A stretch of DNA of 11,549 nt, taken from contig JAJPZL010000493.1 in assembly GCA_021204375.1 (NCBI GenBank), forward strand, positions 1 to 11,549. The letters run 5' to 3'. A program made the position numbers and the translations under genes. The notes beneath the pieces were generated by a model. That model did no database searches. It was not told the origin of the DNA and saw only the letters and a list, made by a program, of their open reading frames with translations. Position 1 is the first letter of the stretch, and the number at the start of each line of letters is the position of its first letter. Positions 1,798 through 11,403 of the stretch are shown here, one piece after another. The DNA comes from Bacteroides sp. Its GTDB lineage: Bacteria; Bacteroidota; Bacteroidia; Bacteroidales; Bacteroidaceae.

Positions 1798-3837
1798 ATG
1801 GAAAAGAAATTTAAACGGACAACGGTTACTTCTGCATTGCCCTATGCGAATGGTCCTGTTCATATCGGACACCTGGCCGGGGTCTATGTTCCGGCGGATA
1901 TTTATGTACGCTACCTAAAATTGAAGAACGAAGAGGTGCTCTTTATCGGGGGTTCTGACGAGCACGGTGTACCGATCACGATCCGTGCCAAAAAAGAGGG
2001 GGTTACCCCGCAGGATATTGTGAACCGTTACCATACGCTGATCAAAGATTCGTTTGAAGAGTTTGGTATATCGTTCGATATCTACTCCCGTACTACTTCG
2101 GAGACGCATCATAAGCTGGCTTCGGACTTTTTCCGTACGTTGTATGATAAAGGTGCTTTTATTGAAAAGAGTTCGGAACAATATTACGACGATGAAGCGG
2201 GACAGTTCCTGGCGGATCGTTATATTACCGGCGAATGCCCTCACTGTCATTCGGAAGGTGCCTACGGAGATCAGTGTGAGAAGTGTGGTACTTCACTGAG
2301 CCCTACCGACCTGATCAACCCGAAAAGTGCGATCAGCGGAAGTGTGCCGGTGATGAAAGAGACCAAACACTGGTACCTGCCGCTGGACCAGCACGAGGAG
2401 TGGCTGCGGAAGTGGATCCTGGAGGATCACAAGGAGTGGCGTCCCAATGTATACGGGCAGTGCAAATCGTGGCTGGATATGGGGTTGCAGCCCCGGGCGG
2501 TAAGCCGTGACCTGGACTGGGGGATCCCGGTACCGGTAGAGGGTGCGGAAGGCAAGGTGTTGTATGTTTGGTTCGATGCTCCGCTGGGTTATGTATCGAA
2601 TACGAAGGAGTTGCTGCCGGATACGTGGGAAACGTGGTGGAAGGATCCGGAAAGCCGGTTGATCCACTTTATCGGAAAGGATAATATTGTGTTCCACTGC
2701 ATTGTTTTCCCGGCTATGCTGAAAGCGGAAGAGAGTTATATATTGCCGGAGAATGTGCCTTCGAACGAGTTCCTGAACTTAGAGGGAGATAAGATATCGA
2801 CTTCGCGCAACTGGGCAGTGTGGCTGCATGAGTATCTGGAAGAGTTCCCGGGTAAGCAGGATGTATTGCGGTATGTATTGACGGCGAATGCACCGGAGAC
2901 GAAGGATAATGATTTTACCTGGAAGGATTTCCAGGCACGCAATAACAGTGAGCTGGTAGCGATCTACGGGAATTTTGTAAACCGTTCGCTGGTACTGACT
3001 GCCAAGTATTTTGATTCGAAGGTTCCGCAGGCGGGTGAACTGACGGAGTATGATAAAGAGGTACTGGCTGAGTTTGCACAGATCAAGAGTGAACTGGAGC
3101 AACTGCTGGATAACTTTAAATTCAGGGATGCGCAGAAAGAGGCGATGAACCTGGCACGTATCGGGAATAAGTACCTGGCGGATACGGAGCCGTGGAAGCT
3201 AGCTAAGACGGATATGGAGCGTGTGGGCACGATCCTGAATATCAGCCTTCAGCTGGTGGCTAATCTGGCTATTGCTTTTGAACCGTTTCTGCCTTTCAGT
3301 TCGCAGAAACTCAGGGATATGCTGAATATGGATACGTTTGAGTGGAACAGCCTGGGACGTACGGATCTTTTGCAGGCGGGTCATCAGCTGGGTAAGCCTG
3401 AGTTGCTTTTTGAAAAGATAGAAGATCCTGTGATCGAAGAGCAGATACAGAAGCTGCTGGCTACCAAAAAAGAGAACGAGGAGAATAACTACAAAGCGAA
3501 CCCGGTCCGGGAGAATATTGAGTTTGACGATTTCCTGAAACTGGATATCCGGGTGGGTACGGTACTGGAGTGCCTGAAAGTACCGAAAACGGATAAACTG
3601 CTTCAATTCAAGATAGAAGATGGATTGGAGACCCGTACCATTGTTTCGGGTATTGCTGGTTACTATCAACCGGAAGAGCTGGTAGGGAAACAGGTGTGCT
3701 TTATTGCCAACCTGGCACCCCGCAAGCTGAGGGGGATCGTTTCGGAAGGGATGATCCTTTCGGCGGAGAATAATGACGGCACTTTGTCGGTGATCATGCC
3801 CCAGAAGGAGGTAAAGCCGGGAAACGAGGTCAAATAA
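1798..3837 (+). CDS. metG: Methionine--tRNA ligase (MetRS) with C-terminal tRNA-binding domain
   Basis: This cytoplasmic class Ia synthetase activates methionine with ATP and charges tRNA-Met, both initiator and elongator. The 679-residue protein is the usual length for the long bacterial form. The Rossmann catalytic domain begins with [11 protein letters not shown] (HIGH at residues 22-25). The zinc knuckle is complete: C147-PH-C150, then C160-EK-C163. The KMSKS loop is the variant KISTS at residues 332-336, within the family pattern. An alpha-helical anticodon-binding domain follows, and residues about 578-679 form the EMAP/Trbp111-like OB-fold ([26 protein letters not shown]), which aids tRNA binding and dimerisation. 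The ATG at 1798 is the first start that preserves the full N-terminal strand before HIGH. It sits about 30 nt below a good promoter and has no obvious Shine-Dalgarno. The gene looks intact and essential. It is oddly placed as the apparent first gene of a polysaccharide cluster, with the flippase ATG 9 bp after its stop. Confidence 0.98.
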
Positions 3838-3846
3838 GAGTTTGTT

Positions 3847-5301
3847 ATGTCCGATAACCTGAAGAGCAAAACCATCAGGAATGTAGTATGGAGTACTATT
3901 GATAAGGCAGGGCAGCAGGTGATCTATATAGGAGTATATATATTGCTGGCTAACCTGCTTACACCGGAAGATTACGGACTGATCGGGGTGCTTACTATCT
4001 TTATGGCTATCTCCAGTGTGATGATAGACAGCGGGTTCAGCTCTGCGCTGATCCATAAAAAGGCCCCGACCGAACAGGACTATAGTTCTGTTTTCTATTT
4101 TAACCTTTTTCTGAGTGTGGGGATCTACCTGCTTCTTTACAGCGGGGCTTCCCTGATAGCAGATATCTTTGGGGATGAACGGCTGGTAGTGTTGTCACGG
4201 ATCACTTTCCTGGCTATTATTGCCAACTCTTTAGGAATTATACATGGAACGCAGCTGAATAAAGAGCTGGATTTTGTTTCTCTGACCAAGATCAACTTTT
4301 TATCCCTGCTGATCTCTTCTGTGACGACGGTGTGGCTTGCGGTAAAAGGGTATGGAGTGTGGGCCCTGGTAGCGCAGACAGTGGTGCTTTCGGTAGCTAA
4401 GTTCTTACTTTATCTTTTATTTAACCGGTGGTATCCCCGGAAACATTTCCGGCTGGCTCCGATCCAGGAGTTCCTGCCTTACAGTTCACGTCTTTTGGGT
4501 GCGGGGTTATTGAATGCTGTCTTTGATAATATCTATGCGCCTTTTATCCGTACGTTGGGTTATCCGTTATCCCAGGTGGGTATCTATACCCAGGCCAATA
4601 AATTGCAGGAGATACCGGCATTGCTTATTTCAAATACTTTTAAAAGTGTATCGTTCCCTACCCTGGCTTCTGTGAAAGAGGATGAAGAGCGGATGAACTG
4701 CATCCTTAGTAAAACCGTACGTACGATCGCGTTTATCGGATTACCGGTTATGTGGGGGCTGGCAGTAACGGGAGACTCTTTTATCCTGCTTATTCTTCCG
4801 GAACGCTGGGCACCGAGCATAGTACTGTTCCGGATCCTCTGTTTTGCAGGGATGATCTCGCCGTTCTTACCGCTGTTTGTTAACCTGTTGCTGGCTAAAG
4901 GGGCCTCTAAAAAGTATCTGCACCTGGAAATTATTACCAAATCTTCTCTGCTGGTTTTTCTGGTGCTGGGATCGTTCGCCGGTATTAAAGGGATAGCGGG
5001 TAGCTGGATCGCTTATAACTACCTGGCGGTAGGGGTGGCCCTGGTATTTACCCGGAAGATCTCCGGGTATGGTTTCCGGGCGTTCTGGAAAGATCTCCGG
5101 GTCTATTTTTTCTCTTCGGTGGTGATGGCGGTTGCCGTATATAGCCTGTCCTGGATAGTGCACGACCGGATGGTATTGCTACCGGTACAGTGTATAACCG
5201 GAATTCTTTTATATACGGGTTGTATGAAGTTTTTCTCTACGGATATTTACTTAGAGACGGAGGAGATCGTAAAAAGAAGGATCAGAAAACCCAGATCATA
5301 G
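3847..5301 (+). CDS. Polysaccharide flippase of the MOP/WzxC type (lipid-linked oligosaccharide transporter)
   Basis: The 484-residue polytopic membrane protein is made of about 12-14 hydrophobic segments. Near the start are IRNVVWSTIDKAGQQ and LANLLTPEDYGLIG, followed by the GFSSALIHKK stretch; these are typical of WzxC-like members of the MOP exporter superfamily (Polysacc_synt family). Such proteins flip undecaprenyl-pyrophosphate-linked glycan units from the cytoplasmic to the periplasmic face of the inner membrane. The length is normal and the C-terminus is a basic tail (KRRIRKPRS). The ATG at 3847 is 9 bp after the metG stop, and the next gene starts 9 bp after this one ends, so all three are probably co-transcribed. 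It is the only transporter gene seen and probably exports the product of the downstream glycosyltransferases. The substrate cannot be read from the sequence. A teichuronic-acid-type exporter annotation would reflect the same family, not a different function. Confidence 0.92.
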   Translation: MSDNLKSKTIRNVVWSTIDKAGQQVIYIGVYILLANLLTPEDYGLIGVLTIFMAISSVMIDSGFSSALIHKKAPTEQDYSSVFYFNLFLSVGIYLLLYSGASLIADIFGDERLVVLSRITFLAIIANSLGIIHGTQLNKELDFVSLTKINFLSLLISSVTTVWLAVKGYGVWALVAQTVVLSVAKFLLYLLFNRWYPRKHFRLAPIQEFLPYSSRLLGAGLLNAVFDNIYAPFIRTLGYPLSQVGIYTQANKLQEIPALLISNTFKSVSFPTLASVKEDEERMNCILSKTVRTIAFIGLPVMWGLAVTGDSFILLILPERWAPSIVLFRILCFAGMISPFLPLFVNLLLAKGASKKYLHLEIITKSSLLVFLVLGSFAGIKGIAGSWIAYNYLAVGVALVFTRKISGYGFRAFWKDLRVYFFSSVVMAVAVYSLSWIVHDRMVLLPVQCITGILLYTGCMKFFSTDIYLETEEIVKRRIRKPRS

Positions 5302-5310
5302 CGAATATAT

Positions 5311-6144
5311 ATGTTAATATTTATCCCGGCAGGAGGGCTTGCCAACAGGCTCCGTTCTATTTGTTCTGCGATACAATTGAGTAAGGATTGTGGTATTCCA
5401 CTGAAAATTATCTGGTTTAAGGATCAGGGGCTGGGATGCCGTTTCAGTGATCTTTTTAATCCGATACAAGAGGAGGGTATTGTCCTGAGAGAGGCAACAT
5501 GGGCCGACAAGTTGTTACTGGACCGACCGCGCAGGAAGAACTTTTATCTTCCCCGGATTTATCAGCGATGGGCTTTTACAGAGAGGTTGTATGAACAACA
5601 GATCACACCGCTCAGGAACAGCAATTTTGATTTCAGGGGATGGGCCACGGCTCAGTCTGCCTATATGGCCTCCTATACGCTCTTTTATCAGTTTCCAGGT
5701 GAGATGTTGCGTACCTGTTTTGTACCTGTACCGGAGATACAGGAAGAATTGGAAAGGGAACTGAAGGATGTAAACGGGGATACGATCGGGATTCATATTC
5801 GCCGGACGGACCATACGATCGCCATTCTGGAGAGTCCTACGGAGCTCTTTTTCCGGAAGATGGATGAGCAGATAGAGAGAGATCCGGCTACCCGGTTCTA
5901 TTTAGCGACCGATTCGCAGGAAGAGAAGAGGGATTTTATGGAGAGGTATGGGGAGAGGATCCGGACTATCCGGCAGGAGGCAGACCGCACCAATAGAGAA
6001 GGAATGCGGGATGCGGTGAAAGAGTTTTTCCTGCTCTCGGCCTGTAAAGAGATATGGGGAAGTTCGGATAGCTCTTTTTCGGAAATGGCCGCTTACCGGA
6101 GTGATATTCCTTTAAAGGTGATCCGGAAAAAGATTAATTCCTGA
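5311..6144 (+). CDS. Fucosyltransferase-like glycosyltransferase (GT11-related, HxRRxD motif)
   Basis: The 277-residue protein is predicted to be cytoplasmic. It opens with the strand-loop IFIPAGGLANRLRSI (residues 3-17), usual for alpha-1,2/1,6-fucosyltransferase-like GT-B enzymes. It carries the GDP-sugar-binding motif HIRRTD at residues 162-167 (HxRRxD, as in GT11, NodZ/FUT8 and protein O-fucosyltransferases). A C-terminal motif, GSSDSSFSEMAAY, begins at residue 250 and corresponds to the SxSSFS stretch of GT11. Its likely role is transfer of fucose or a related sugar from a GDP donor onto the growing lipid-linked glycan. It is somewhat shorter and more divergent than typical GT11 members, so donor and linkage are uncertain. 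The ATG at 5311 directly precedes the first beta-strand. It follows the flippase by 9 bp and ends 128 bp before the next gene, which has its own promoter-like box. Confidence 0.78.
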   Translation: MLIFIPAGGLANRLRSICSAIQLSKDCGIPLKIIWFKDQGLGCRFSDLFNPIQEEGIVLREATWADKLLLDRPRRKNFYLPRIYQRWAFTERLYEQQITPLRNSNFDFRGWATAQSAYMASYTLFYQFPGEMLRTCFVPVPEIQEELERELKDVNGDTIGIHIRRTDHTIAILESPTELFFRKMDEQIERDPATRFYLATDSQEEKRDFMERYGERIRTIRQEADRTNREGMRDAVKEFFLLSACKEIWGSSDSSFSEMAAYRSDIPLKVIRKKINS

Positions 6145-6230
6145 CTGGCAGAACCACCGGTTAAAAGGGAAAAGGAGTTTGCTATTTGTTAAAAAGAGCG
6201 ATAAATAGTGAGGGTATAAGCTATTTTTCG

Positions 6231-6238
6231 TAGTTTTG
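6231..6238 (+). promoter_or_regulatory. -7 box (TAGTTTTG) upstream of the CDP-polyol synthetase gene
   Basis: In the 128-bp gap 6145-6272, TAGTTTTG fits the Bacteroidetes -7 consensus TAnnTTTG exactly. About 20 bp upstream (6207-6210) there is only AGTG, a weak match to the -33 TTTG. A start near 6245 would leave a leader of about 28 nt before the ATG at 6273. This suggests that the synthetase-LicD-GT genes can be transcribed separately from the flippase unit. Short CTATTT motifs occur at 6182, 6221 and 6249 in the same gap, with no clear meaning. Confidence 0.5.
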
Positions 6239-6272
6239 TGAGTAATAACTATTTGATTGAAAACCCACAAGT

Positions 6273-7643
6273 ATGAGAAAGAACATCGCAGTTATTCTGG
6301 CGGGAGGTATAGGAAGTCGTTTTGGATTTTATACACCGAAACAATTTTTTAAGTTAGCCGGTAGAACCGTTATTGAACATACAGTAGAGGCATTTGAAAT
6401 AAATGACAATATAGATCATACTACGATCGTATCCAATCCTTTTTATATTTCGCAGGTAGAGTCACTTATCTTAAAAAATAACTGGAAAAAAGTAAATAAG
6501 GTAATAAGCGGAGGTAAAGAGAGATATAATTCCAGTCTATCCGCGGTGCAGGCCTACGCCCACGAAAAAGTAAATTTAATCTTTCATGAAGCAGTGCGTC
6601 CTTTGGTTACCCAGCGTATTATTAATGATGTGATTGCTACGCTTAAAAGTTACAGAGCAGTAGATGTAGCGATCCCTTCTACCGATACGATCATTCAGGT
6701 GAACGGAGACTTTATAGAGCATATTCCCGACCGGAGCAGGCAGCAAAGGGGACAGACTCCCCAGGCTTTTCATATAGAATTGATCAGGGAGGCTTATTCT
6801 ATCGCTTTAAAAGATCCGGAATTTAAGGTTACGGATGATTGTGGGGTGGTAAAAAAATATATGCCGGAAGAAGAGATCTATGTGGTAAAAGGGGAAGAGA
6901 GTAATATGAAACTGACTTTCCCGGAAGATACTTATCTGTTGGATAAATACCTGCAATTAAGGAAAAATGAGCTGGAAGAGGTACGGTTAGAGCCCAATGT
7001 ATTTTTAAACAAGGTAGCGGTTGTGTTCGGAGGAAGTTACGGGATCGGAAAAGAGATCGTGACGTTACTGAACCAGTATGGGGCAAAAGCGTATGAGTTT
7101 TCAAGGAGTTCGACCCAAACGGATATCTCTTCGAGAGAAGATGTCAGGGAAGCGTTGAAAGGAGTTTTTGAAAAGGAACAACGGATCGATTATGTGATCA
7201 ATCCGGCGGCCGTATTAAAGACAGAGCTCTTAATGAACGCTGATTATGAAACGATCTGTGAAACGGTGAATGTTAATTACCTGGGGGCTGTTCATATTGC
7301 TATGGAGGCTTTTGAATACCTGAAAGAGACGAAAGGTAAATTGCTGTTCTTTACTTCGAACTCTTATATACGGGGAAGGGCCTTCTGTGCCGTTTACTCA
7401 TCTACCAAAGCGGCTATAGTAAATTTTGTGCAGGCAATTGCCCAGGAATGGGAGCCTCTAGGAATCCAGGTGAACTGTATCAACCCGGAACGTACTACTA
7501 CTCCGATGAGGGTGAAGAATTTCGGGATTGAGCCGGAAAGTAGCCTGTTAACTCCTCAACAAGTTGCTTCGGTAAGCGTACAAAGCCTGCTGAAAGATTT
7601 TACAGGACAGGTAATTGATATTAAGAAGAAGGATGAAAAATAA
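6273..7643 (+). CDS. Bifunctional cytidylyltransferase / short-chain reductase, probable CDP-ribitol synthase (Acs1/Bcs1-like)
   Basis: The 456-residue cytoplasmic protein fuses two enzymes. Residues about 1-230 are an IspD/TarI-type cytidylyltransferase: the nucleotide loop AGGIGSRFGFYTPKQF (residues 10-25; R16 and K23 would contact CTP), FHEAVRPLV, RGQTPQAF (159-166) and TDD at 187-189. Residues about 245-456 are an SDR domain. Its cofactor loop is GGSYGIG (253-259) in place of TGxxxGIG, and NPAA (310-313) replaces NNAG. The likely catalytic set is N335, S362, Y375 and K379. This order and length match H. influenzae Acs1/Bcs1, which reduces D-ribulose-5-phosphate with NADPH and activates the product as CDP-ribitol. 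Other CDP-polyols (for example arabinitol) are possible, and plain isoprenoid IspD is unlikely because of the fusion and context. The 5' half is AT-rich (19 of 60 GC at 6481-6540). The last 11 bp overlap licD, so the two are probably translationally coupled. Confidence 0.85.
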   Translation: MRKNIAVILAGGIGSRFGFYTPKQFFKLAGRTVIEHTVEAFEINDNIDHTTIVSNPFYISQVESLILKNNWKKVNKVISGGKERYNSSLSAVQAYAHEKVNLIFHEAVRPLVTQRIINDVIATLKSYRAVDVAIPSTDTIIQVNGDFIEHIPDRSRQQRGQTPQAFHIELIREAYSIALKDPEFKVTDDCGVVKKYMPEEEIYVVKGEESNMKLTFPEDTYLLDKYLQLRKNELEEVRLEPNVFLNKVAVVFGGSYGIGKEIVTLLNQYGAKAYEFSRSSTQTDISSREDVREALKGVFEKEQRIDYVINPAAVLKTELLMNADYETICETVNVNYLGAVHIAMEAFEYLKETKGKLLFFTSNSYIRGRAFCAVYSSTKAAIVNFVQAIAQEWEPLGIQVNCINPERTTTPMRVKNFGIEPESSLLTPQQVASVSVQSLLKDFTGQVIDIKKKDEK

Positions 7644-8448
7644 AAACCTGGAGAAATATGTGGCTTCTAATTTAAGGAGCTGTCAGTTAAAACAAGTGGA
7701 GCTATTGGATATAGTGGATGCGATTTGCAGGAAGCATCAGTTAAACTATTGGCTGGACGGCGGCACTTTACTGGGAGCTGCCCGGCATAAAGGGTTTATT
7801 CCGTGGGACGATGACCTGGATATCGGAATGTCCCTGGAAGATCTGAAAAGGTTTATACAAATAGCGGGTAAGGAGTTGCCGGAGCATGTTTTCCTGCAGA
7901 CTAAAGAGACGGACCCCTCCTTTCCGAATCCGTTCGTCAAGCTCCGGGATATGAACTCCTTCTTTGTGGAATTCGGGGATGATTTTAAAAAGGAGTACCA
8001 GAAAGGAATCTATCTGGATATTTTCGGTTTTATTCCCTATCCTTCGCTTTCGCGCAAGAGTGTGAAGTTCTTCACGAAAAGGATAAACCGCTCGTATACT
8101 ATCCTGCATGGAGCGCATTACTATAGCCTGAAAACGTTTCTTCAGTTCCCCTGGTTTACGGCGCAGTACTATTCGTTAAAACTGATCTGGAGTATTGTAT
8201 GTGCTTTCAGCAGTAAAAAGAGGTTTATCTCCAACGAACTGCATAACAACGGATATGGGATCATGCACCTGAAAGAGAATATATATCCGTTGGGAGAGAT
8301 CTTTTTTGAGGGGGAATATTACAGTGCCCCGGCCAATCCGGATGGGTATCTGATGGAATTGTATGGGGATTATATGCAATTGCCTCCGGAAGATAAGCGA
8401 AAAATACATGCTACTTATATTAATCCTTGTTTAGATGCAGGAGAGTAG
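7633..8448 (+). CDS. LicD/fukutin-family phosphotransferase (probable polyol-phosphate transferase)
   Basis: The 271-residue protein shows the full LicD/FKRP nucleotidyltransferase-fold signature. WLDGGTLLGAARHKG (residues 40-54) contains the GG-T/S pair, and FIPWDDDLDIG (55-65) supplies the metal-binding aspartates D59-D61 and D63. The ending YGDYMQLPPEDKR is the usual C-terminal LicD motif. Characterised relatives move phosphocholine (LicD) or ribitol-5-phosphate (fukutin, FKRP) from CDP donors to sugars. Because the upstream overlapping gene looks like a CDP-ribitol synthase and no choline genes (licA, licB, licC) are seen, ribitol-phosphate or another polyol-phosphate is the better guess. 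The ATG at 7633 is preferred over an upstream in-frame TTG at 7615. It lies inside the previous gene (overlap ATGAAAAATAA) behind a purine-rich AGAAGAAGG stretch. Its stop overlaps the next gene by 14 bp, so coupled translation of three proteins is likely. The acceptor sugar is unknown. Confidence 0.9.
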   Translation: MKNKNLEKYVASNLRSCQLKQVELLDIVDAICRKHQLNYWLDGGTLLGAARHKGFIPWDDDLDIGMSLEDLKRFIQIAGKELPEHVFLQTKETDPSFPNPFVKLRDMNSFFVEFGDDFKKEYQKGIYLDIFGFIPYPSLSRKSVKFFTKRINRSYTILHGAHYYSLKTFLQFPWFTAQYYSLKLIWSIVCAFSSKKRFISNELHNNGYGIMHLKENIYPLGEIFFEGEYYSAPANPDGYLMELYGDYMQLPPEDKRKIHATYINPCLDAGE

Positions 8449-9367
8449 AGTTTATGCACCCGTGGCTATGTTCGTGTATAACCGGCTTAGCAATACACGG
8501 AACACGTTTGAACACCTGAAAAAGAATCTATACGCGGATCAGACAGCGCTCTATATATTCTCTGATGGCGGAAAGGATGAGCGATCCCGGAAAGAGGTAC
8601 AAAAGGTAAGGAAGTATCTGAGAACGGTTTCCGGATTTAAAGAGATCCATCTGGTAGAAAGGGAGTGTAATTACTACCTGGAACGGAATGTGATAGAGGG
8701 GATCCATGAGGTGATCGGCAGGTATGGCCGGGTGATCGTACTGGAAGATGATATTGCTACCTCTCCCTGGTTCCTGAAGTATATGAACGATGCGCTTGAG
8801 TTTTATAAGGAGGATAAAAAGGTGATGCATATTGCCGGATTTACCAACCTCCATCTGGAAAATAAAGGGGATACTTATTTTACGCCTCACATGTCGGGAT
8901 ATGGATGGGCTACCTGGAGTGACCGGTGGAAGCATTTCCGCCACTATTCTAACCGGGAAGAGACATTGGCTGGTCTTTCGCCCGAAGAGCTGGAACGCAT
9001 TGAGTATGACGGGGCTTTTCCGTGTCTCCGGTCGCTTGACCGCAGGCCGATCCCCTGGGATATTTGCTGGGAATTAACTATTTATAAACAGAAAGGTTTG
9101 TGCCTTACTCCTACCCGTTCGCTGGTGAGGAATACAGGGATCTATTCGGGAACTCATTTCAGGCACTATAAAATATTGGGAAGGTATAATTACGACCGTC
9201 CTTTTTATGACAGAGAGATGCGGGTAAATAGCCGGGAGATAAAAGCGGACCCGGAGATTGAAGAACTTTATAAGGAGGCTTTTAGGGATCATGGCATGCG
9301 CTATACGCTTTTGGGGAAAATAGCGCGGTATTTTTATCTCCGCTTCATTAAGAAAAGTTACAAATAA
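8435..9367 (+). CDS. GT-A-fold glycosyltransferase (GT2/GNT-I-like sugar transferase)
   Basis: The 310-residue cytoplasmic protein starts with APVAMFVYNR (residues 8-17), the first beta-strand typical of this group, then FSDGGKDE (42-49). The metal/nucleotide-sugar site is VLEDDIATSPWFLKYMNDAL, with EDD at residues 104-106 as the DxD equivalent. GYGWATWSDRW (155-165) is the conserved acceptor-side motif of the family. These proteins are common in Bacteroidetes O-antigen and capsule loci and resemble the catalytic core of N-acetylglucosaminyltransferase I, but donor and linkage are not predictable. The ATG at 8435 overlaps the licD stop by 14 bp. The basic C-terminal segment (FYLRFIKKSYK) may help membrane association. 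As the third gene of the coupled set, it could add a sugar to, or supply the acceptor for, the LicD step. Confidence 0.85.
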   Translation: MQESRVYAPVAMFVYNRLSNTRNTFEHLKKNLYADQTALYIFSDGGKDERSRKEVQKVRKYLRTVSGFKEIHLVERECNYYLERNVIEGIHEVIGRYGRVIVLEDDIATSPWFLKYMNDALEFYKEDKKVMHIAGFTNLHLENKGDTYFTPHMSGYGWATWSDRWKHFRHYSNREETLAGLSPEELERIEYDGAFPCLRSLDRRPIPWDICWELTIYKQKGLCLTPTRSLVRNTGIYSGTHFRHYKILGRYNYDRPFYDREMRVNSREIKADPEIEELYKEAFRDHGMRYTLLGKIARYFYLRFIKKSYK

Positions 9368-9371
9368 TTTG

Positions 9372-9379
9372 TACCTTTG
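9372..9379 (+). promoter_or_regulatory. -7 box (TACCTTTG) upstream of the GT4 gene
   Basis: TACCTTTG fits the Bacteroidetes -7 consensus TAnnTTTG exactly and begins 4 bp after the previous stop codon. The -33 position (near 9348) reads TTAA, a poor match to TTTG. Transcription would begin about 10 nt before the ATG at 9396. This argues for that ATG over an upstream in-frame TTG at 9369, which would lie ahead of the transcription start. Confidence 0.5.
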
Positions 9380-9395
9380 CAGAAACTTTACAAAA

Positions 9396-10658
9396 ATGAG
9401 GGTACTACTGATCAATACATCCGAGAGGATCGGGGGAGCTGCTATTGCAGCCAGCCGGATCATGGAGGCTCTGAAGAATAATGGCATCAAAGCAAAATTA
9501 CTGGTAAAAGATAAGCAAACCGACAACCTGAGTGTAGTAGGCCTGGAACAGAACTGGTGGCAGGTATGGAAATTTGTCTGGGAACGGATCGTGATCTGGG
9601 CAGGTAACCGCTTCCACAAAAAGAACCTTTTTTCGGTGGATATTGCCAATACCGGAAATGATATTACCTCGCTGCCGGAGTTCAGGCAGGCGGATGTGAT
9701 TCACCTTCACTGGATCAACCAGGGGATGTTATCGCTGAAAAACCTAAGACAGATCCTTGCATCGGGCAAACCGGTGGTATGGACCATGCATGATATGTGG
9801 CCCTGCACCGGGATATGTCATTATGCACGTACCTGTGACCACTACGAAACGGAATGTAAGGATTGTCCCTATCTCTGGGAAAGCGGTGGTAAGAAGGATC
9901 TCTCTTACCGGACCTTCCGGAAGAAAAAGAGTTTGTATGAGCAGGCTGATATTACCTTTATTACCTGTAGTGAATGGCTTAGAAAACAGGCCGAAAAAAG
10001 TGCGTTTATTACCGGGCATACCGTAACCAATATTCCTAACCCGATCAATACAAATCTTTTTAAACCGAGAGATATTGCAGAAGCACGTAAAAGACTGGAA
10101 TTACCTTTGGATAAAAAGCTGATCCTTTTCGGCTCGGTTAAAATTACCGATGAGCGTAAAGGGATGACTTATCTGGTAGAGGCGTGTAAATTATTAATTG
10201 AAAAATATCCCCACCTGAAAGAGGAGATAGGGCTGGTTGTATTTGGCCAGAAGAGTTCTTACCTGGAACCAGTCCTCCCCTTCCCTGTCTATTCCCATGA
10301 GTTTATCCGGGATGAAAGAAAAATTGTGGATATTTATAATGCGGTGGATCTGTTCGTAACTCCTTCGCTGGAAGAGAACCTGCCTAATATGATCATGGAG
10401 GCTATGGCCTGCGGAGTGCCTTGTGTAGGATTCCAAACGGGGGGTATCCCTGAGATGATCGATCACCTGCATAACGGGTATGTAGCCAAATATAAGTCTA
10501 CCGAAGATTTTGCCAACGGTATTCACTGGCTGCTGGAAGAGGATCAGGCCCCGCTGCGTGAGGCTGCCCACCGGAAAGTGGTTTCCTGCTATTCGGAGAA
10601 TGCGGTTGCCAAGCGGTACCTGGCTATTTATAACCGGATAACCGGAAAGCATGAGTAG
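9396..10658 (+). CDS. Glycosyltransferase family 4 (GT-B fold, WcaC-like)
   Basis: The 420-residue protein is a retaining GT-B glycosyltransferase. The N-terminal domain begins VLLINTSERIGGAAIAASRI, with the GG loop usual for GT4. It contains VIHLHWINQG and TMHDMWPCTG, followed by a cysteine-rich stretch (C137, C141, C147, C154, C157, ending in CPYL) that is characteristic of this GT4 branch. The C-terminal domain carries the nucleotide-sugar motif E-x7-E (E327 and E335 in EENLPNMIMEAMACG) and TGGIPEMI. Its role is addition of one sugar during assembly of the cluster's glycan in the cytoplasm; the donor is not predictable. The ATG at 9396 is chosen because it immediately precedes the first beta-strand and follows a -7 box; an in-frame TTG at 9369 would add nine residues of no family character. 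The 3' end overlaps the next gene by 8 bp. Confidence 0.9.
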   Translation: MRVLLINTSERIGGAAIAASRIMEALKNNGIKAKLLVKDKQTDNLSVVGLEQNWWQVWKFVWERIVIWAGNRFHKKNLFSVDIANTGNDITSLPEFRQADVIHLHWINQGMLSLKNLRQILASGKPVVWTMHDMWPCTGICHYARTCDHYETECKDCPYLWESGGKKDLSYRTFRKKKSLYEQADITFITCSEWLRKQAEKSAFITGHTVTNIPNPINTNLFKPRDIAEARKRLELPLDKKLILFGSVKITDERKGMTYLVEACKLLIEKYPHLKEEIGLVVFGQKSSYLEPVLPFPVYSHEFIRDERKIVDIYNAVDLFVTPSLEENLPNMIMEAMACGVPCVGFQTGGIPEMIDHLHNGYVAKYKSTEDFANGIHWLLEEDQAPLREAAHRKVVSCYSENAVAKRYLAIYNRITGKHE

Positions 10659-11403
10659 AAGGGAGCCTTTGTTTTCTATCATTACGGTTACCTGGAATGC
10701 TCAGGATACGCTGGAGAGAACATTGCAAAGTGTAGCGTCCCAGAGATACGGGCGTATAGAGTATATAGTGATTGACGGAGGTTCCTGGGATGATACGCTT
10801 CAACTAACTGAAAAGTATCGATCTTCTATTGCTAAGTTGACCAGCGAACCGGACCAGGGGATCTACGATGCTATGAATAAAGGGATCCAGCAGGCTACCG
10901 GGGATTATCTCTGTTTCCTGAATGCCGGAGATACTTTTTATACTCCTCTTACTTTGCAGGAAATAGTAAATGTTCTTCCAACTACCGGGGAATTACCGGA
11001 TATTATATATGGGGAGACGGCTATTGTAGATAAGGAAGGAGCATTCCTGTATATGCGCAGACTTTCCGCCCCGGAACATCTCACCTGGAAAAGTTTTAAA
11101 AGCGGTATGCGGGTATGTCACCAGGCCTTTTTAGTAAAAAGAAGCCTGGCAGAACCCTACGACCTGAGATACCGCCTCTCTGCTGACTTTGACTGGTGCA
11201 TCCGGATGATGAAAAAGACAAACCGGATCTGTAATACTCATCTTATCCTGATCAATTACCTGAATGAGGGGATGACGACCCGGAACTATAAAGCTTCCCT
11301 GAAAGAGCGATTCCGGATTATGGTACATTACTACGGATTTATCTCTACTGTTTTCTATCATCTTTGGTTTATTGTACGGTTGATCCTTAAACCGGAAAAA
11401 TAA
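10651..11403 (+). CDS. Glycosyltransferase family 2 (WcaE-like)
   Basis: The 250-residue protein is an inverting GT-A enzyme. It starts FSIITVTWNA (residues 8-17), then VIDGGSWDDT with the nucleotide-contacting D42. Next come EPDQGIYDAMNKGI, FLNAGD (N91-D94, the metal-site equivalent of DxD), the CHQA motif (156-159) and SADFDW (177-182), which probably includes the catalytic acid/base region. This motif set matches the WcaE-like group common in O-antigen and exopolysaccharide clusters. The ATG at 10651 overlaps the end of the GT4 gene (ATGAGTAG), so the pair is probably translationally coupled. A hydrophobic, basic C-terminal end (FIVRLILKPEK) suggests peripheral membrane contact. Length is normal. 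The sugar transferred is unknown. Confidence 0.9.
   Translation: MSRREPLFSIITVTWNAQDTLERTLQSVASQRYGRIEYIVIDGGSWDDTLQLTEKYRSSIAKLTSEPDQGIYDAMNKGIQQATGDYLCFLNAGDTFYTPLTLQEIVNVLPTTGELPDIIYGETAIVDKEGAFLYMRRLSAPEHLTWKSFKSGMRVCHQAFLVKRSLAEPYDLRYRLSADFDWCIRMMKKTNRICNTHLILINYLNEGMTTRNYKASLKERFRIMVHYYGFISTVFYHLWFIVRLILKPEK

Follow-up and report, generated by a model that had tools for sequence, protein, structure and literature searches.

The 11,549-bp stretch of Bacteroides sp. DNA analyzed here (contig JAJPZL010000493.1 of assembly GCA_021204375.1; referred to in full as the window) carries two overlapping genes that are predicted to make and transfer a polyol phosphate. The first (6273..7643; like all genes of the window given below, on the plus strand) has an ATG start and encodes a 456-residue protein in which an IspD-type cytidylyltransferase is fused to a short-chain dehydrogenase/reductase (SDR), a predicted synthase of cytidine diphosphate (CDP)-alditol with reductase and cytidylyltransferase activities. 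The second (7633..8448) encodes a 271-residue LicD-family phosphotransferase. Judged by gene order, and jointly with the mechanism proposed below, the window is likely to be a complete locus of the type known as the locus of fragilis glycosylation (LFG), with the fusion and LicD as a polyol-phosphate cassette in its species-specific part. More tentatively, and again as a joint proposal, the module may be a Bacteroidota counterpart of the dystroglycan pathway. ISPD-type and LicD/fukutin-type enzymes would place a polyol phosphate on an N-acetylhexosamine (HexNAc) of a mannose-linked protein O-glycan, the CDP-polyol supply (a fused SDR, or an IspD with an extended SDR) would be swapped by species around an orthologous LicD, and the polyol would mark hundreds of proteins in a way particular to each species.

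The LFG is described as beginning with metG, followed by wzx, a variable middle part, and two conserved glycosyltransferases in last position; it is responsible for the outer portion of the O-glycan attached generally to proteins in Bacteroidota, and its deletion in B. fragilis is reported to abolish most of the O-glycan (PMC12871550; here and below, statements from cited papers are limited to the accessible parts of their text). The window has the same frame, namely, metG (methionine-tRNA ligase, 1798..3837; 883 bits against NCBIfam NF001100, cut-off 587) and then wzx (3847..5301; PF13440, 245 bits), encoding a MOP-type flippase that would move the lipid-linked outer glycan and whose best NCBIfam model is "O-glycosylation flippase" at 318 bits, under its cut-off of 720. 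At the other end are a GT4 glycosyltransferase (9396..10658; PF13692/PF00534), corresponding to the penultimate conserved LFG gene, and a WcaE-like GT2 glycosyltransferase (10651..11403; best NCBIfam model wcaE, 89 bits versus a cut-off of 369), corresponding to the last. Judged by its position and not by sequence, the GT2 is probably a BF4306-type fucosyltransferase. This terminal pair is conserved behind metG and wzx in members G059, G165, and G258 of the taxonomic family. In these three, two of them congeners, a single stretch holds the four genes in the same order, with identities of 82 to 88% for metG (88% in both congeners compared), 29 to 35% for wzx, 59 to 70% for GT4, and 63 to 67% for GT2. 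The fusion and LicD were absent from all three family loci with the whole frame (three of the five family members sampled); the pair is therefore a cassette that varies by species within a conserved locus. The other two sampled members have the glycosyltransferase pair, with neither metG nor wzx within the 19 kb examined. Among 393 genomes of the order Bacteroidales, 156 contained a relative of the last GT2 at an E value of ≤1e-30, a count that includes the window's own genome and all five other sampled family members. Given the LFG layout of the cluster, the cassette probably serves the general protein O-glycan as its target. An earlier interpretation made from the DNA alone (the sequence-only reading) had assumed an unspecified surface-glycan cluster, and on this point it gives way to general protein O-glycosylation.

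Residues 5 to 227 of the fusion (6285..6953) match Pfam IspD at 147 bits (cut-off 27), and residues 247 to 415 (7011..7517) match the classical SDR core, adh_short (PF00106), at 102.6 bits (cut-off 26.6). The motifs PKQ (22-24), GQTPQ (160-164), TDD (187-189), and GGxxGIG (253-259) are present together with S362, Y375, and K379. Across 80 aligned fusions, PKQ, GQTPQ, DD (188-189), GIG (257-259), S362, Y375, and K379 were invariant; of all the motif residues listed, only T187 and G254 varied, being found in 72 and 77, respectively. An IspD-type cytidylyltransferase is thus joined to an SDR with its catalytic residues intact, as in proteins of the Bcs1/Acs1 type. The LicD protein scored 138 bits against PF04991 (cut-off 22.6), residues W58, D59, D60, D61, and D63 of its DDD metal motif were invariant in 38 of 38 sequences, and its nearest structure was FKRP, with which it has the catalytic fold in common. 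As the fusion stop codon (TAA) occupies 7641-7643 and the LicD gene starts with ATG at 7633, the genes overlap by 11 bp; an alternative TTG start at 7615 would give an overlap of 29 bp. The complete cytidylyltransferase and complete SDR of the sequence-only reading, and the 11-bp overlap that it noted, were confirmed. Support was likewise obtained for its view of the two genes as one unit of CDP-polyol synthase and LicD phosphotransferase in a Bacteroidales setting, comparable to Bcs1 and to ISPD/FKRP.

Using a profile search of genome contigs, 549 relatives of the fusion were found, the best 80 of which make up the named loci and are accordingly the closest ones, not a random draw. In 29 of the 80, the next gene downstream, in the same orientation, was LicD, and a CDP-alditol-type phosphotransferase (LicD and/or TagF-like) lay within 3 kb in 70 (LicD only in 34, TagF-like only in 29, both in 7, and neither in 10). 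For the TagF-like class, 40 neighbors were picked from 39 loci lacking LicD; PF04464 was found in 21 of these, and the remainder were assigned via a profile grown from them. The fall-off with distance served as the neighborhood control. In loci with full flanks, LicD or TagF-like genes were present in 59 of 65 within 3 kb, in 3 of 59 at 3 to 6 kb, and in 0 of 54 at 6 to 9 kb. Fusion-LicD adjacency is far above chance. In a tree of 79 loci and the window (L095 was left out for one stop), the window fell within a 23-row clade (SH-aLRT support of 91) in which 21 rows, the window counted, have LicD. The full arrangement of the window recurs in Phocaeicola coprophilus (L036), Bacteroides mediterraneensis (L039), and an uncultured Bacteroides (L037, a metagenome-assembled genome). 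In these three loci and the window, the pair is co-oriented and directly adjoining, within the interval bounded by wzx and the two conserved glycosyltransferases of the LFG. The search for the pair across Bacteroidales that the sequence-only reading had suggested recovered a full-length fusion in 10 of the 393 genomes, 8 of which had LicD (E ≤ 1e-5), compared with 49 of the 383 others (P = 4e-6). With LicD restricted to E ≤ 1e-70, a cut chosen after the list had been seen, the fusion was present in four of the five such genomes versus 6 of 388 (P = 1e-6). Both are Fisher values that, because the genomes are kin to each other, overstate independence and are indicative only. The fusion was also observed in records titled Phascolarctobacterium (L067), Methanocorpusculum (L073), Duodenibacillus (L104), Oscillospiraceae (L108), and Treponema (L110), which would mean either that the gene has been transferred or that the contigs were binned wrongly.

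The LicD family is versatile, and the only NCBIfam match of the window's LicD was to the cholinephosphotransferase Mf1 (72.6 bits versus a cut-off of 225). A more distant LicD (36% identity; L123 of genome G111, 4674-9885) adjoins a phosphoenolpyruvate mutase/cytidylyltransferase fusion and a phosphonopyruvate decarboxylase. LicD alone therefore leaves the donor unfixed, and the case for a CDP-alditol donor rests on the neighboring gene. Use of another donor (CDP-choline or cytidine monophosphate-aminoethylphosphonate), with the fusion an unrelated neighbor, is nevertheless very improbable, given that LicD lies directly downstream in 20 of the 22 other fusions of the window's clade. Choline is an unlikely donor, and no choline kinase (PF01633) was found in the window's own genome, which is 79% complete.

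Hardly credible is a role of the fusion in isoprenoid synthesis, yielding CDP-methylerythritol, as its IspD family name and its 160.5 bits against TIGR00453, the model of IspD of the methylerythritol phosphate (MEP) pathway, might imply. This score is under the cut-off of 181.3, and a separate standalone IspD elsewhere in the genome scores higher than the fusion against PF01128 (183 versus 150 bits). Fusions and TarI chains have GQTPQ in common, and the housekeeping IspD of the same genome has VQTPQ. On these three grounds the isoprenoid role was rejected. Against NF001183 (D-ribitol-5-phosphate cytidylyltransferase) the fusion scored 159.5 bits, below the cut-off of 166. Its cytidylyltransferase was nearest to PDB chain 4jis, a ribitol-5-phosphate cytidylyltransferase. 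The best four chains were 4jis and 6xhp, both named ribitol-5-phosphate cytidylyltransferase, and 2vsh and 3f1c, both deposited under the MEP name, although 2vsh is pneumococcal TarI. A 24-row tree placed TarI on the fusion side of the genome's own IspD, but long branches meet there; 8 of the 19 standalone IspD relatives from genomes of the order (L014-L032) were compared.

Gene content, domain families, conserved pairing, and locus layout are direct observations; which polyol is made, which sugar accepts it, and how the steps follow one another we infer as follows. The SDR domain would reduce a keto-sugar phosphate with NAD(P)H, most likely ribulose-5-phosphate to ribitol-5-phosphate, and the IspD/TarI-type domain would join the alditol phosphate to CTP, giving a CDP-alditol. 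In the cytoplasm, LicD would transfer the alditol phosphate to a sugar, probably HexNAc, of the undecaprenyl-linked outer glycan. Wzx would then flip the alditol-phosphate-bearing outer glycan, which would be ligated to the mannose-linked core on proteins with the D-S/T motif. Comparable groups occur on known glycans. The O-glycan of P. gingivalis bears glycerol phosphate with zero to two acetyl groups, probably added late (PMC8729774), and that of P. intermedia contains HexNAc-HPO3-C6H12O5, in which the authors see a C6 sugar alcohol, for example, mannitol or sorbitol (PMC10897501). The B. fragilis core is a mannose-linked rhamnosyl-mannose disaccharide (PMC8698959), with Tannerella as an exception, and a review likens the Bacteroidota pathway to eukaryotic O-mannosylation (PMC12871550). 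In humans, ISPD and FKTN/FKRP act on alpha-dystroglycan, also a mannose-linked protein glycan (PMC4873967). The known O-glycan chemistry and the mannose-linked core together lead us to infer a place for the module on a mannose-linked protein glycan.

Several observations weigh against the reading offered here, and they concern the pair, the locus, the window copy, and the donor. Two of the 10 fusion genomes had no LicD match, two more had LicD on another contig, and one fusion among the 10, that of G290, is interrupted by an internal stop. Across the 22 other clade loci, metG and/or the terminal glycosyltransferase pair were identified in 8 and wzx only in 3 more; in the other 11, 3 of them on short stretches, no metG, wzx, or terminal pair was found, and the module therefore also occurs outside the LFG frame. 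In Hoylesella loescheii (L045, 9908-12182), the fusion and LicD have an M23/LysM peptidase on one side and a Y-family DNA polymerase on the other. A Pfam scan of seven proteins flanking this pair detected no glycan-assembly enzyme, and one flanking protein, 6 kb farther on the opposite strand (17410-18519), resembles the window glycosyltransferase at 8435 (E = 2e-14). LicD enzymes elsewhere decorate lipopolysaccharide. Such findings would suit a pair that decorates another glycan, for example, lipopolysaccharide or capsule, and that is in the LFG by chance. We consider this unlikely, as the pair holds its co-oriented, adjoining position inside the LFG not only in the window but also in P. coprophilus, B. 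mediterraneensis, and L037, and the LFG is the locus whose loss is reported to remove most O-glycan in B. fragilis. The H. loescheii arrangement fits a self-contained decoration unit, as the sequence-only reading had described the pair.

The window copy is itself the most deviant of the 80 aligned fusions, with eight private changes at columns that are ≥97% conserved in the others (median, 1) and an end branch of 0.67 in the fusion tree (median, 0.26). It has E106, N363, I366, and C372 where D, S, T, and Y occur in 79, 79, 79, and 77 of the 80, respectively. These changes, which the sequence-only reading had not noted, fall in both domains; N363, I366, and C372 sit between the catalytic serine and tyrosine, and residue 106 is equivalent to a substrate-binding aspartate of E. 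coli IspD. A copy that is drifting or inactive under relaxed selection would explain such a pattern, but this is unlikely, since the frame is open, S362, Y375, K379, and the nucleotide loops are intact, and LicD and the genes around it likewise have uninterrupted frames and match known families. The deviations may reflect altered specificity or drift.

As the polyol, ribitol is the first choice because of TarI and Bcs1, the latter making CDP-ribitol from ribulose-5-phosphate, NADPH, and CTP (PMC10299916), and we put it at roughly even odds. That the module works as proposed on a hexitol (mannitol or glucitol) or on another pentitol such as arabinitol is a serious contender, falling somewhat short of even chances. 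The P. intermedia glycan and the four changed near-invariant residues in both domains of the window copy lend it weight; the nearness of the cytidylyltransferase to 4jis, the GQTPQ loop common with TarI, and the product of Bcs1, the known fused enzyme, count against it. It is further favored by genome G173 (L114:3645-7198), in which an orthologous LicD (54% identical) is near a different CDP-polyol supply. G173 has no fusion at E ≤ 1e-60; instead, about 2 kb from LicD on the other strand, an IspD-type enzyme that stands alone is accompanied by an extended SDR. A PF01128 protein beside a PF01370 oxidoreductase has been used to recognize gene pairs for CDP-glucitol/CDP-mannitol synthesis (PMC10918830). 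Such a pair is present in L114 and not in the window fusion, whose SDR is of the PF00106 kind and whose Pfam matches at E ≤ 1e-3 do not include PF01370. The extended SDR of G173 matches the CDP-6-glucitol synthase structures 8v4g/8v4h (E = 4e-35), which is suggestive only, because UDP-glucuronate decarboxylases score slightly better. The CDP-polyol supply thus appears to have been replaced around an orthologous LicD in G173. As to the "ribitol-phosphate or similar" of the sequence-only reading, the polyol-phosphate part is supported; ribitol itself is unproven and is one candidate, with hexitols as live rivals.

Comparison with known systems revealed both likenesses and differences. The H. influenzae Bcs1/Acs1 protein, like the fusion, combines a cytidylyltransferase and a reductase in a single polypeptide, a likeness drawn from descriptions and not from sequence; Bcs1 feeds the capsule polymerase Bcs3, whereas the partner of the fusion is LicD in a protein O-glycosylation layout. 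Human ISPD with fukutin/FKRP resembles the pair in uniting an ISPD-family CDP-polyol supply with a LicD-family phosphotransferase, but the acceptor and the cell compartment differ. The parallel with dystroglycan is closer than the sequence-only reading supposed, since both glycans can be mannose-linked to protein. No function is known for the C-terminal part of human ISPD (PMC4873967), whereas that of the fusion is an SDR with catalytic residues. Using Foldseek, the top match of the fusion was human ISPD (4cvh; E = 1.1e-18, 472 columns, template modeling [TM] score of 0.45, root mean square deviation of 14.4), in an alignment extending across both domains of a model whose domain packing is of low confidence (predicted TM score of 0.54). 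In a second structure comparison, the 50 matches listed contained single-domain SDR chains only. Human ISPD may thus descend from a fusion of this kind, its C-terminal part being the degenerate remnant of the SDR. The Bacteroidota LFG shares with the window metG, wzx, a variable middle, and the two last glycosyltransferases; the variable part of the window carries a CDP-alditol synthase/LicD cassette, of which there is no mention in the accessible parts of PMC12871550. The O-glycans of P. intermedia and P. gingivalis, with phosphate and a C6 sugar alcohol on HexNAc or with glycerol phosphate, are known from mass spectrometry. The terms "LicD" and "CDP" are absent from the P. intermedia O-glycan text (PMC10897501), as is "LicD" from that on P. 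gingivalis (PMC8729774). In Campylobacter jejuni (HS5.18/HS5.17) and S. pneumoniae (Mnp1/Mnp2), an IspD-like cytidylyltransferase and an SDR generate CDP-hexitols as two proteins, and CDP-fructose is the substrate of the HS5.17 reductase, a PF01370-type enzyme (PMC10918830); the window has one fused protein with a classical SDR.

Each piece of the proposal is already known, namely, the fusion, LicD, the LFG, and phospho-polyols on such glycans. The fusion is annotated as "bifunctional cytidylyltransferase/SDR family oxidoreductase," and bacterial ISPD-LicD and ISPD-reductase fusions were remarked on by Gerin (2016). No paper that connects the LFG with LicD or with CDP-polyol synthesis was found in searches covering mainly open-license papers, and the accessible parts of the literature covered gave no assignment of enzymes for the phosphoglycerol and phospho-hexitol groups of Bacteroidota O-glycans. 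As far as these searches reach, it is new to assign a CDP-alditol synthase/LicD cassette to the protein O-glycosylation locus, and the hint of an exchange of donor supply around an orthologous LicD is new as well. The result is a precise two-gene candidate in named species, within the LFG frame in P. coprophilus and B. mediterraneensis and outside it in H. loescheii. If correct, it would offer a directly testable bacterial model of ISPD-fukutin/FKRP chemistry on a mannose-linked protein glycan and would allow species with anionic polyol tags on their proteins to be predicted from sequence.

The pair is flanked by two further glycosyltransferase genes. Upstream, in the variable cassette, a 277-residue putative glycosyltransferase with the motif GGLANRLR (5311..6144) has sub-threshold FUT8/GT11 matches only; relatives were observed in two fusion-LicD loci, L037 and L051. 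Downstream, a GT2/GNT-I-like glycosyltransferase gene (8435..9367) overlaps the LicD gene by 14 bp, and its product is barely over the cut-offs of PF03071 (25.8 bits) and PF00535 (25.3 bits). Ahead of metG (111-1538) are several short open reading frames, one of which (1011-1538) has a weak Fib_succ_major match under the cut-off. Neither Rfam at its gathering threshold nor a tRNA scan gave a match in the window. A sigma-70 scan returned nine sites versus 4.8 expected (standard deviation, 2.5) and was not used as support. The 128-bp gap before the fusion (6145-6272) contains TAGTTTTG at 6231-6238, which fits the Bacteroides -7 consensus, TAnnTTTG, and the polyol cassette may have a promoter of its own.

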